This document shows positions 1,612 to 6,554 of a stretch of 64,000 nt of DNA, one piece after another. The position numbers and the translations under genes were made by a program. How positions within the stretch are numbered: position 1 is the first letter of the stretch; each line of letters starts with the position of its first letter. The DNA is from Thermotoga petrophila RKU-1 (GTDB taxonomy: Bacteria; Thermotogota; Thermotogae; Thermotogales; Thermotogaceae): positions 1,054,001-1,118,000 of the forward strand of contig NC_009486.1 in NCBI RefSeq assembly GCF_000016785.1, read 5' to 3'. A model generated the notes under the pieces. That model ran no database searches and was not told where the DNA came from. It saw only the letters and a list, made by a program, of their open reading frames with translations.

Positions 1612-1908
1612 ATGTTCGTGATAGCCAATCTGCTCAGATCGATCGCGGTGGTTCTGAGAACGTTCATATACGTGGAGATTGTGTCCATCGTTGTCTCTGC
1701 GATCTTCAGCTGGACCACACCTTACTATTATCACCCTGTAAGAAGGTTCTTTGATGCTTTATCTTCGATCGTTTTGAATCCTATTCGACGCGTTGTGCCT
1801 CCAATAGGTTCTGTTGACATATCTCCTATGATTGCCATCTTCATTCTCATGTTCCTGGACGGTTTCCTCGTACAGACCCTCTTCGATCTGGCGGTGAGAC
1901 TTTCATGA
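1612..1908 (+). CDS. YggT family integral membrane protein
   Basis: A 98-residue hydrophobic protein with two predicted membrane segments, near residues 5-35 and 70-95. The middle holds the family-typical NPIRRVVPPIGSVDISPM block (residues ~60-77). YggT proteins often sit beside yggS and cell-division or envelope genes; their molecular role is not settled. ATG 1612 follows the previous stop with no gap and has GGAGGGAAG upstream. The 3' end overlaps the NAD kinase start (ATGA), so translation is probably coupled. The family call is good; the function is unknown. Confidence 0.87.
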   Translation: MFVIANLLRSIAVVLRTFIYVEIVSIVVSAIFSWTTPYYYHPVRRFFDALSSIVLNPIRRVVPPIGSVDISPMIAIFILMFLDGFLVQTLFDLAVRLS

Positions 1909-2681
1909 AAATCGCCATTCTTTACAGAGAAGAGCGAGAAAAAGAGGGAAAATTCCTGAAAGAAAAGATTTCAAAAGAACACGAAGTAATCGAGTTCGGT
2001 GAAGCGAACGCTCCAGGAAGGGTTACGGCAGATTTGATAGTGGTGGTTGGAGGAGACGGAACCGTGCTCAAGGCAGCGAAAAAAGCGGCCGATGGAACAC
2101 CAATGGTGGGCTTCAAGGCAGGCAGACTGGGGTTCCTCACATCCTACACCCTCGATGAGATAGATCGATTTCTCGAGGATCTCAGAAACTGGAACTTCCG
2201 GGAAGAAACAAGATGGTTCATACAGATCGAAAGTGAACTCGGAAACCATCTCGCCCTGAACGATGTCACCCTCGAACGTGACCTGAGTGGAAAGATGGTC
2301 GAAATAGAGGTCGAGGTGGAGCACCACTCTTCCATGTGGTTCTTCGCAGACGGAGTGGTGATTTCCACACCGACAGGTTCCACGGCTTATTCTCTTTCCA
2401 TAGGAGGTCCCATAATATTCCCGGAATGCGAGGTGCTGGAGATCTCTCCCATTGCACCACAATTCTTTCTCACCCGAAGCGTTGTGATACCCTCGAATTT
2501 CAAAGTGGTGGTTGAATCCCAGAGAGATATAAACATGCTGGTGGATGGAGTCCTGACGGGAAAAACAAAACGAATCGAAGTAAAGAAATCCAGAAGATAC
2601 GTTAGAATTCTGAGACCTCCTGAGTACGATTACGTGACGGTGATAAGAGACAAACTCGGTTACGGGAGGCGTATCGAGTGA
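1905..2681 (+). CDS. nadK: NAD kinase
   Basis: ATP (or polyphosphate)-dependent kinase that phosphorylates NAD to NADP. The 258-residue length is normal for short bacterial NadK. The diagnostic GGDGT motif is at residues 49-53, followed by the family NE/D-type motif LALNDVTLERD and the glycine-rich TPTGSTAYSLSIGGP block that shapes the active site. The start overlaps the yggT stop by 4 bp (ATGA) and the gene end overlaps the PhoU-like gene (GTGA), placing it inside a translationally coupled operon. Identification is secure. Confidence 0.96.
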   Translation: MKIAILYREEREKEGKFLKEKISKEHEVIEFGEANAPGRVTADLIVVVGGDGTVLKAAKKAADGTPMVGFKAGRLGFLTSYTLDEIDRFLEDLRNWNFREETRWFIQIESELGNHLALNDVTLERDLSGKMVEIEVEVEHHSSMWFFADGVVISTPTGSTAYSLSIGGPIIFPECEVLEISPIAPQFFLTRSVVIPSNFKVVVESQRDINMLVDGVLTGKTKRIEVKKSRRYVRILRPPEYDYVTVIRDKLGYGRRIE

Positions 2682-3385
2682 ATAGACTCTTAAACGAAAA
2701 GGTGGAAGAATTCAAGAAAGGCGTTCTCAAAGCGGGATGGTTCATAGAAAAGATGTTCAGAAACTCCATATCCTCACTTGTCGAAAGAAACGAGTCCCTC
2801 GCCAGGGAAGTGATCGCAGATGAAGAGGTTGTCGATCAGATGGAAGTGGAGATTCAGGAAAAAGCAATGGAGGTGCTCGGCCTCTTTTCTCCCATAGGAA
2901 AGCCCCTTCTCACAGTAACAGCGGGTATAAGGGTGGCAGAGCTCATTGAAAATATAGCCGACAAATGCCATGACATCGCAAAGAACGTCCTTGAACTCAT
3001 GGAAGAACCTCCCTTGAAACCTCTCGAAGACATTCCAGCCATGGCGAATCAAACTTCAGAAATGTTGAAGTTCGCTCTCAGGATGTTCGCCGATGTGAAC
3101 GTAGAAAAGTCTTTCGAAGTTTGCAGGATGGATTCGAAGGTTGATGACCTGTACGAGAAGGTGCGTGAAGAACTCTTGCTCTACATGATGGAGTCACCCA
3201 AATATGTGAAAAGGGCTCTTCTCCTCTTAGAAATAGCCGGCAACATAGAGATCATAGCCGATTACGCCACCAACATCGTGGAAGTCTCCGTTTACATGGT
3301 TCAGGGAGAGGCCTACAAGTGCTACCACGATGAACTCCTTCTCTTCAAAAAATCCGGAGGGGTGCTCTTTGAAAGTTCTGATTAA
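2678..3385 (+). CDS. phoU: PhoU-like regulatory protein
   Basis: A 235-residue all-helical protein with two PhoU-type three-helix repeats: roughly residues 10-105 with the E-x-x-x-D metal-binding style segment EEVVDQMEVEIQEKAM, and residues 115-215 with DSKVDDLYEKV. PhoU proteins modulate phosphate uptake and PhoR-type signalling, but no pst or phoBR genes are visible nearby, so its partner here is unknown. The GTG start at 2678 overlaps the NAD kinase stop (GTGA) and has GGGAGG 9 bases upstream. The 3' end overlaps the start of the downstream permease fusion by 17 bp. Confidence 0.88.
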   Translation: MNRLLNEKVEEFKKGVLKAGWFIEKMFRNSISSLVERNESLAREVIADEEVVDQMEVEIQEKAMEVLGLFSPIGKPLLTVTAGIRVAELIENIADKCHDIAKNVLELMEEPPLKPLEDIPAMANQTSEMLKFALRMFADVNVEKSFEVCRMDSKVDDLYEKVREELLLYMMESPKYVKRALLLLEIAGNIEIIADYATNIVEVSVYMVQGEAYKCYHDELLLFKKSGGVLFESSD

Positions 3386-6300
3386 GTATCTTCTGAAACT
3401 CTCCGTTGTCCCTTTCTTGATCGGTCTTGGTGGTTTCATCGTTTTCGTCAGTCTTGAGATTCTCTACCAGCTCTCCGATCTGATAGTGAGGCACAGGGTG
3501 GGAATCGAAAAACTCTTTCTCATGCTGTACTACTACCTTCCTTACTTCGTCGCAATGGGTGTTCCCGTTGGAGTACTCCTCGCCATCTTCTGGACGTTCT
3601 CACGACTCTCCGAAGAAAGAGAGCTCATGGCCATACAGGTTCACGGAATCTCCCAAAAAAATTTGATCGTTCCCTTTCTGATTCTTGGAGCCCTTCTCTC
3701 CATAGCCGTCTTCTTCCTCAGCGATCAAATCGTTCCCGAGTACCAATCAAAAGCAGAAGAAGCAATGTCGAAGTACGTTCTGAAAAAACCCGAGGTTTTT
3801 GTCGTTGAAAACGTCATCTCAAAGATAGGAGACGACCAGTATTTCTATGTGGAAAAATACGACGAAAGAACAAGCACGATGTGGAACGTGGTTATTTTCA
3901 GATACGGGCATGAAGAGACGATAATCACCGCAAAAAGGGTGCAGAAAAAAGGTAACGACTGGTACCTCTTCAATGGAAATTACTACACCGTCGATAAAGA
4001 TGGCTTCTTAAAACTCGACGTGCACTTTTCTGAGATGAAACTGGATATTACAGAAGACATAGAAAAACTCCTTCGTGTGGGAAAGACGCCGAGAGAGATG
4101 ACTGGAAGAGAACTCAAGGAAAAGATAGAATTCTTCAAAAAAGTGGGAGTGAAACCTTCTCCCTGGGTCGTAGAGCTTCACAGCAGATACGCGAACTCTT
4201 TGACGCCGATAGTGATAGTGCTCGTTGGAGTGCCTCTCTCTCTTCTCTTTCAGCTGAGAAGCAAATCCTGGGGTGTGATCTTCACTTTCGTACTCGTTGT
4301 CCTTTATCAGGGAAGCGGTGCGTGGCTCAGCGCCATGGGAAAGGAAAATCTCCTCGATCCCGTGCTCGCACCGTGGATTCCAAACATCGTGTTCACGATC
4401 GTTGGAACGCTCCTGTTTATCCTTCTCGACACCTTTCTCGCCTACAGAATCACAGAATTTCTCTCGAGACTGTTTTTCGTTGCCTTCATCTTCACCGTCT
4501 CTTCTCTTTTTTCATCACAGGTTGTCATAGTGTCCGATCGAATGGAAAGGTTTCCGGAGGAAATGGTCTTTCATGGAAGCGTTGAAATATCGTACAAAGA
4601 TATGACCGTCCAGGCGAGCGAAGCCACGGTTCAGCTCACCGAAGAAGGGAAAGCGAAAAAACTCGAAGCTTCAGGTGGAGTGATATACAGAAAGGCAGAC
4701 ACGATCTTGATTGGTGAGCATTTGATCTTCTATCTGGAAAATGAAAAAAGCGTTCTTACTCACATTCGGGGAAGCACTGTCCTCGAAATAGAAAAAGAAA
4801 AGAAAAAAATTTACCTGTCCGGTGAAGATCTCACCTCTGAAGGCTCGAGAACGATCGTGGACATGGGTTCCATCTCCACCTGCTCGGAAACTCCGCCCCA
4901 TTACAAGCTCAAGGCCAGGTACATAGAAATAAAAGAGAACGACTACCTCCTGGCAAAGGATGTGGTTTTCTATCTTCTGGAAATACCGCTGTTTTATCAA
5001 CCCATCTTTTTCACTTCACTATCCGACAAACCGCAACCGTTCTCCGTTGAAGTGGGTGTGGGAGATAACCCGTACCTGAAAACCTCTTACAACGTGTCTT
5101 ACCCCTCTGGACTACTGTATTTCTCAACCAAAAGTGTATTGAGCGGAGACCTGTCTAAGGAACTCAACTGGAACCACAAGATGGGAAGCTGGTCCATCAA
5201 TTTAGACTACAAAGAATCGACATCCCACAGCGTTTTGGTGAAGATCTTCGACAGTAAAAACACCTTCCTTTTCTCACAGAAAAACGAAGAGAGAATCTAT
5301 CAGTTCGAAAGAAAGGAGAAGATCCTGAACGGAAGTCTGAACGTGGTTCTCAAAAAAGAATCGGACGGCGAAGACAGTTACATACTCCCACAAGTAACTG
5401 TGAAAAAAGTGAGCGTCAAGACGGGTGTAGGAACTTTTTCTGTGGACAGTTTCAATCACGAAACCCGCATAGAAGATCAAGAAAAGAGGAACTCCGGGTC
5501 GGTGAGCCTTTCTTTTCGTTCTGTTCCCTTCTTGCTTTTTCAGTCCGTGAGCGTCAGTACCACTGGAAAGTACTTGTTTGAAAACCAAAACCTCGACGAA
5601 CGAACGAGCTACCTCAAAACAGATTCCATATGGGATTTTCAGAACCTTTCCCTCGGGAAGTTTCTCGTACTGGATGATAAAATATACGCTGGCGTGTACA
5701 GATCGAACGAAGACGGCTACCGTGTTGGAAATCTGTTCACAACCACACTCAGAGTGCCTCTGGGGCCTTTTTCCTTCGAGAGTTACTACAAACTCTTCAC
5801 GGTTTCCGGAGAAAACCTCAGAAAGTTTTCCCAGAATGAATCAAAAAACGAGGTGGATCTGAAAGTATCGTTCTCTTATGAAAATTTCAAATCTTCCTTA
5901 GAAACAACCTACGATTTCCTCGAAAAGGAGTTCTCGGATCCGTATCTCAAAACCTCTTACTCGTTCAAAACAGGAGATATCACTCACACTGTGGACTCCA
6001 CTACCCGGTTCGTTCTGGACGAGATCAGCAGAAGTTACACCACCTGGAACTTCCAGCAGAGAATGGGAGCTTTCCTGAACAGATTCTACTTCACCTACTA
6101 CTACAGAGAACCACACGTTAAGTACGTCGAGGATCAGATGAGGATATACGGAAAGAATTTCCTTTTCATGGAAAACCCGCGAATAACCACGTACACAAAG
6201 CTGAGCGTTGATCCCTTTGAACTGGATGAATTCTGGATACGCGGGACGTTTAAAAAAGGAGAGTCCACCCACTCTTTGAAAATGAGTTATTCCAGTGACA

Positions 6301-6554
6301 ACCTGGAATTTTCTTATCAGACAAAGAACGGTGATCCGGCGCTGGAAATATCTTTTTCATTAAAGGACTGGAACGTGGAGAAGTTTTCTCTGTCTGTTGA
6401 AAAGGCTTTGCACTGTCTTGGAACGAAGATTTCAACTTCATTCGGCAGGAATTTCACTCTTGAGAGTTTCTCCATTCTTTTCTTCATAAGAGATTTTCCG
6501 AACAGCGGTATCGGTTTCGACACGGAAGAAGGGATAGGGCTCAACGTTTTTTGA
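3369..6554 (+). CDS. LptF/LptG-type permease fused to LptA/LptD (OstA)-like protein
   Basis: A single uninterrupted 1061-residue frame. Residues ~1-385 look like an LptF/LptG (YjgP/YjgQ) permease: N-terminal membrane helices, the conserved SEERELMAIQVHGIS region, a soluble middle, then further helices. After a hydrophobic segment (~366-385) comes an OstA/LptA-like stretch (DMTVQASEATVQL, AKKLEASGGV, TILIGEHLIFYL). An LptD-like block follows from ~504 (CSETPPHYKLKARYIEI, then LEIPLFYQPIFF) and runs into a long beta-strand-rich C-terminus with alternating aromatic strands. The TTG start has GGAGGGGTG 5 bases upstream and lies inside the phoU end. In Proteobacteria these parts are separate proteins of the LPS-export bridge; here an inner-membrane permease half and an outer-envelope half share one chain. 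Substrate unknown. Confidence 0.8.
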   Translation: MKVLIKYLLKLSVVPFLIGLGGFIVFVSLEILYQLSDLIVRHRVGIEKLFLMLYYYLPYFVAMGVPVGVLLAIFWTFSRLSEERELMAIQVHGISQKNLIVPFLILGALLSIAVFFLSDQIVPEYQSKAEEAMSKYVLKKPEVFVVENVISKIGDDQYFYVEKYDERTSTMWNVVIFRYGHEETIITAKRVQKKGNDWYLFNGNYYTVDKDGFLKLDVHFSEMKLDITEDIEKLLRVGKTPREMTGRELKEKIEFFKKVGVKPSPWVVELHSRYANSLTPIVIVLVGVPLSLLFQLRSKSWGVIFTFVLVVLYQGSGAWLSAMGKENLLDPVLAPWIPNIVFTIVGTLLFILLDTFLAYRITEFLSRLFFVAFIFTVSSLFSSQVVIVSDRMERFPEEMVFHGSVEISYKDMTVQASEATVQLTEEGKAKKLEASGGVIYRKADTILIGEHLIFYLENEKSVLTHIRGSTVLEIEKEKKKIYLSGEDLTSEGSRTIVDMGSISTCSETPPHYKLKARYIEIKENDYLLAKDVVFYLLEIPLFYQPIFFTSLSDKPQPFSVEVGVGDNPYLKTSYNVSYPSGLLYFSTKSVLSGDLSKELNWNHKMGSWSINLDYKESTSHSVLVKIFDSKNTFLFSQKNEERIYQFERKEKILNGSLNVVLKKESDGEDSYILPQVTVKKVSVKTGVGTFSVDSFNHETRIEDQEKRNSGSVSLSFRSVPFLLFQSVSVSTTGKYLFENQNLDERTSYLKTDSIWDFQNLSLGKFLVLDDKIYAGVYRSNEDGYRVGNLFTTTLRVPLGPFSFESYYKLFTVSGENLRKFSQNESKNEVDLKVSFSYENFKSSLETTYDFLEKEFSDPYLKTSYSFKTGDITHTVDSTTRFVLDEISRSYTTWNFQQRMGAFLNRFYFTYYYREPHVKYVEDQMRIYGKNFLFMENPRITTYTKLSVDPFELDEFWIRGTFKKGESTHSLKMSYSSDNLEFSYQTKNGDPALEISFSLKDWNVEKFSLSVEKALHCLGTKISTSFGRNFTLESFSILFFIRDFPNSGIGFDTEEGIGLNVF

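Follow-up and report, generated by a model that had tools for sequence, protein, structure and literature searches.

How can a single gene encode both a permease of the inner membrane and a translocon of the outer membrane, and do the two stay together as one molecule? This question is raised by a 64,000-nucleotide stretch of Thermotoga petrophila RKU-1 (NC_009486.1, positions 1,054,001 to 1,118,000; the window), in which one uninterrupted open reading frame (ORF) of 1061 codons joins an LptF/LptG-type permease to LptD. The original prediction had described this frame as a permease followed by a membrane segment near residue 375 and an OstA/LptD-like C-terminus, and had proposed that the chain forms a covalent bridge across the envelope for another lipid or glycan. 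The description was confirmed throughout: the frame is open from 3369 to 6554 on the forward strand, with a TTG start behind a Shine-Dalgarno sequence, both halves belong to the families named, and a seventh hydrophobic segment occupies residues 360-382. The bridge fared differently. The joint between the halves resembles a cleavable export signal, and the protein is therefore probably cut in two rather than kept as a permanent bridge. In the reading that we consider the most probable, the gene encodes a polyprotein whose internal signal peptide lets signal peptidase separate a permease from an LptD, and both serve a minimal Lpt-type exporter of a lipid other than lipopolysaccharide (LPS).

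The identity of the N-terminal half is clear. The PF03739 (LptF_LptG) profile matches residues 6-350 with E=7.7e-89, and a Foldseek search with the full-length AlphaFold2 model agreed, returning an LptF/G chain (6mjp_G, E=4.6e-15). The half contains six transmembrane (TM) helices and a periplasmic beta-taco between TM3 and TM4, as in LptF and LptG. The equivalog models for these two proteins scored it nearly equally, both below their cut-offs (143.7 bits for TIGR04407 and 140.5 bits for TIGR04408). Each genome encodes a single PF03739 protein instead of the two needed for an LptF-LptG heterodimer, with genome G051 as the exception; the other additional matches were weak or were pieces of broken copies. 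The presence of one permease gene suggests that the permease is a homodimer.

The C-terminal half was recognised by its fold and by family profiles. PF03968 matched the window protein alone weakly and below cut-off (E=0.013) and its orthologues with E=2.1e-8, whereas PF04453, the LptD barrel profile, had no match. A profile built on this half matched the solved LptD structure 8h1r (E=2.3e-6 and 8.3e-7) and also solved LptA chains. By hhalign it aligned with residues 48-225 of E. coli LptD, a stretch that contains TSC and the PIFYSP block (91.7%, E=7.6e-7). AlphaFold2 models of the full length and of residues 383-1061 alone, with predicted local distance difference test (pLDDT) scores of 84.3 and 89.3, show a taco followed by a barrel, as had been anticipated, and the top 15 matches of the latter model in the PDB were all LptD (best E 4.7e-21). 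TM-scores against LptD were only 0.3-0.5, so the barrel differs from known LptD in detail. The modelled architecture, an OstA beta-taco and then an outer-membrane barrel, is that of LptD. The E. coli LptD barrel has 26 strands; about 34 strands lie beyond the taco in the Thermotoga model (5034-6551), either because the barrel is larger or because strands are artificially broken. The only two cysteines of the window protein are C505 at the end of the taco (33/33 orthologues), within an invariant TTC..PHY block, and C1016 near the C-terminus (26/33), within an LHC block. They correspond to the positions that join taco and barrel in E. coli LptD, and a disulfide bond between them is putative. The last residue is Phe in most orthologues and Met in some.

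Is the union of the two halves real? A match was present in 60 of the 61 genomes formed by T. petrophila and 60 relatives, and PF03739 was found in 100 of 103 Thermotogota genomes. In 89 of these 100 the permease lies inside a frame of at least 900 codons, often in a single-contig assembly; the same fusion thus occurs across nearly the whole phylum, which rules out both chance and a sequencing artefact. An annotation or sequencing error that merged two genes could draw on the few genomes where the frame is broken (frameshift or stop in G001, G050 and G089, contig ends elsewhere), and is refuted by the 89 long frames; its probability is negligible. The remaining positive genomes mostly show contig ends or frameshifts, and among them three candidate splits (G053, G013, G032) were rejected because the pieces stop at contig ends. 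A frameshift or an in-frame stop breaks the copies L049 (G001), L040 (G050) and L126 (Marinitoga lauensis); these genomes are otherwise fairly complete, and the breaks may be sequencing errors or true mutations. Some fused proteins carry additional sequence and reach 1270-1474 residues (L036 in G045, L121, and the Kosmotogaceae-like f11 members L037 and L105). A wider contig scan with two lineage-specific permease patterns returned only Thermotogota and one record labelled 'bacterium'; because the patterns are permease-based and lineage-specific, this does not prove absence elsewhere. No relative of the fusion was found in viral contigs.

Two genomes contain true separations, and these are instructive. 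In L119 (genome G101) the order is NadK, PhoU, permease, a stop, 4 nt and then an ATG-started LptD of 848 residues that begins with a textbook signal peptide, MHLRYKSFSPVLFIISLFFIILSGTKVFSA. A frameshift origin of this split was ruled out by about 10 extra codons between the halves, which include the new ATG and a basic n-region. In G051, two separate permeases stand in tandem and a separate LptD of 849 residues has its own signal peptide; this genome also encodes an OstA protein of 621 residues with several OstA stretches (L072, G051:C50:26341-27960), where the usual size is 205-240. L119 branches among fused f9 sequences (support 100/100) and G051 among fused f4 sequences. The fusion therefore appears to be ancestral in the sampled phylum and to have been undone at least twice independently. 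Two points temper this history: the placement of G051 is less certain owing to long branches, and the clean split is known from one metagenome-assembled genome (L119), its congener G102 being cut by a contig end.

The decisive region is the joint. In LptF/G proteins TM6 is the last helix and the chain stops on the cytoplasmic side; the window protein continues with a segment that can be divided into an n-region (R360..R367), an h-region (LFFVAFIFTV) and a c-region (SSLFS), with the junction YRITEFLSRLFFVAFIFTVSSLFS/SQVV. About 50 distinct orthologues share a plan in which a basic residue precedes 10-14 hydrophobic residues and a small or polar stretch, and the first taco strand begins immediately afterwards, with junctions such as SHAQA/AT, GHAFG/AE, TTAWA/SD and SNLFA/EE. 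Native signal peptides of the same genome look alike (MKRKLVWLSFLLLIFTLAFS/QVA, MKKLLIAFFILVSLFAFS/KTI), and the best site typically lies about 16 residues beyond the last basic residue, similar to the 15-16 in secreted proteins of that genome. The segment varies as much between orthologues as the barrel does, with pairwise identities of 0.21-0.23 where TM1-6 reach 0.46-0.79, and pLDDT falls below 50 at residues 373-382, the joint and the loop 228-237 being the longest low-confidence breaks in the full-length model. The gene break in L119 falls exactly here, adding a new start and a basic n-region. In f4 proteins, a Thr/Pro-rich stretch stands immediately after the presumed signal peptide. Several results weigh against cleavage. 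Crude scoring of the -3/-1 site failed to separate the joint from permease TM3 and TM5; with TM1, TM3 and TM5 as controls it was non-discriminating because the conserved TM3 and TM5 also score well. A shuffle test was suggestive only (z=1.8), and the site of the window protein itself (L-F-S) departs from an ideal AxA. Given these weak site statistics, cutting of the chain into permease and LptD is an inference graded as likely only.

The same joint has to be judged for a chain that is never cut, held to the inner membrane by the seventh segment (TM7) and to the outer one by the barrel, as a covalent conduit across the envelope. The conservation of one chain in nearly the whole phylum would fit such a conduit, TM7 is by itself hydrophobic enough for a helix, and an inner-to-outer-membrane protein has been proposed in Veillonella, MlaD (PMC10665443). 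These points are met by the signal-peptide anatomy of the joint together with the natural split in L119, by the fast divergence of TM7, by two independent fissions, which make the link dispensable, and by the retention of a separate LptA/C-like protein, as a cut system would need. Reach is a further difficulty. For the Thermotoga Omp-alpha coiled coil a length of 45 nm is predicted (PMC9388160), and the periplasm probably measures tens of nm across; the LptD taco, with about 12 strands in two sheets, has an estimated length of 3-5 nm and no linker precedes it after TM7. Only where the two membranes are in tight contact could an uncut chain extend to both. We regard the conduit as unlikely, and this part of the original prediction is not supported. 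If it were true with a homodimeric permease, each exporter would carry two tethered barrels; the specific form in which such a continuous machine works only where the membranes come within a few nm is quite improbable.

Another arrangement without cleavage would make TM7 and the first taco a built-in LptC, the helix packing on the permease and the taco taking the lipid, with bridging only at local contacts. LptC indeed consists of one TM helix and a taco, and a separate canonical LptC is lacking in most genomes. Against this stand the LptC-like match of the separate OstA protein, the poor conservation of TM7 as a packing helix and the LptD taco leading straight into the barrel, and we hold this arrangement to be very unlikely.

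Candidate partners of the favoured polyprotein are encoded at other loci. LptB is encoded elsewhere in the genome (TIGR04406, 306.9 bits; cut-off 240), as is an Omp85 (BamA) protein. An OstA protein of 205 residues that matches both LptA and LptC is encoded at L070:6957-7574, and the phylum retains such a separate LptA/C-like protein. The lptB gene directly follows a gene for an OmpH/Skp-like chaperone, apart from the fusion (L147:5239-6446), an envelope-biogenesis context; a short way upstream of the lptA-like gene is a patatin-like phospholipase gene (L070:8311-9075), a possible link to lipid homeostasis. The LptE profile PF04390 had no match in the T. petrophila genome; it found none in control genomes either, among them Synechococcus and Thermus. 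LpxC is absent from all 103 Thermotogota genomes; LPS is therefore presumably lacking too, which does not agree with LPS transport, and another lipid is the likely cargo. In this respect the original prediction of another lipid stands as likely, separately from its covalent bridge, which is not supported.

A working scheme can be proposed from these elements. The six N-terminal helices would form a homodimeric LptF/G-type permease that works with LptB2 in the inner membrane, while the seventh segment would act as an internal Sec signal peptide taking the downstream chain into the periplasm. Signal peptidase I would cut after about residue 382 and release mature LptD, which BamA would insert into the outer membrane, and the LptA/C-like protein may complete the complex by spanning the periplasm between permease and LptD. 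The cargo is most likely a non-LPS amphiphile, with a glycolipid favoured. Of this picture, the domains, their distribution, the single permease, the list of parts and the natural split are computational results, and cleavage, homodimerisation, complex assembly and cargo are inferred. The features of the locus are collected in Table 1; upstream of the fusion lie a NAD kinase gene and then a PhoU-like gene, whose end overlaps the fusion start.

Table 1. Features of the fusion locus, in window positions.
Feature	Position	Strand	Basis
NAD kinase (neighbour)	1905..2681	+	Assigned by sequence reading; synteny retained in split orthologue L119
PhoU-like protein (neighbour), overlapping fusion start	2678..3385	+	Assigned by sequence reading; synteny retained in L119
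Shine-Dalgarno GGAGGGG, 6 nt ahead of TTG start (3369)	3356..3362	+	Sequence
Single gene, LptF/G-type permease and LptD, 1061 residues	3369..6554	+	ORF, profile matches, AlphaFold2/Foldseek
Six-TM LptF/G permease, residues 1-357; periplasmic beta-taco, residues 149-224	3369..4439	+	PF03739, AlphaFold2, Foldseek
Seventh hydrophobic segment, residues 360-382, read as internal signal peptide; predicted cut S382/S383	4446..4514	+	Orthologue comparison, model pLDDT, L119 split
LptD N-terminal OstA/beta-taco domain, residues 383-555, with TTC..PHY block (503-512; Cys505 codon 4881-4883)	4515..5033	+	Profiles, AlphaFold2/Foldseek
LptD-like outer-membrane beta-barrel, residues 556-1061; Cys1016 in LHC block (codon 6414-6416); C-terminal Phe	5034..6551	+	AlphaFold2/Foldseek, orthologue comparison

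The T. maritima locus, presumably TM1735, found no mention in the literature searched. A 2022 survey confined lptD and lptE to true LPS diderms and described the Thermotogae as lacking nearly all of the outer-membrane genes studied except bamA (PMC8871954), a picture that needs correction for lptD. The occurrence of LptD, permease, LptB and the LptA/C-like protein across the phylum indicates that lipid can be exported to the outer membrane of the toga without LpxC. Lpt orthologues have likewise been described in Borrelia burgdorferi, a diderm without LPS, where a glycolipid was argued to be the cargo, an idea also mentioned for T. maritima (PMC10353723). That paper credits the T. maritima orthologues to Putker 2015 and does not contain the words fusion or fused. 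The member families are thus known, and what is new is the arrangement of permease, signal and LptD in a polyprotein with a single permease; it may have been noticed earlier, most likely by Putker et al. (2015). The lipid content of the toga becomes a directly testable question.

Veillonella parvula MlaD also places an inner-membrane part and an outer-membrane barrel in one chain, but it belongs to the unrelated MCE family, and its membrane parts are separated by a long helical region that the Thermotoga fusion lacks (PMC10665443). Compared with the E. coli-type LptB2FG-C-A-DE machine, the Thermotoga system shares the permease, ATPase, OstA bridge and LptD families, as well as the LptD cysteine pair and fold. 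It differs in that a single gene encodes both permease and LptD, a lone permease takes the place of LptF and LptG, and there is one LptA/C-like protein, with LptE and LpxC not found; such a single-permease machine offers a simplified model for the evolution of Lpt systems. A parallel to the proposed processing is the Bradyrhizobium fbcH cytochrome b/c1 polyprotein, in which a multi-TM protein, an internal signal peptide and an exported domain are likewise made as one chain and cut in two. That protein belongs to a respiratory complex and its exported part remains at the inner membrane, with no outer-membrane barrel. A polyprotein of permease and translocon, if true, would be a new way to make inner- and outer-membrane partners in equal amounts.
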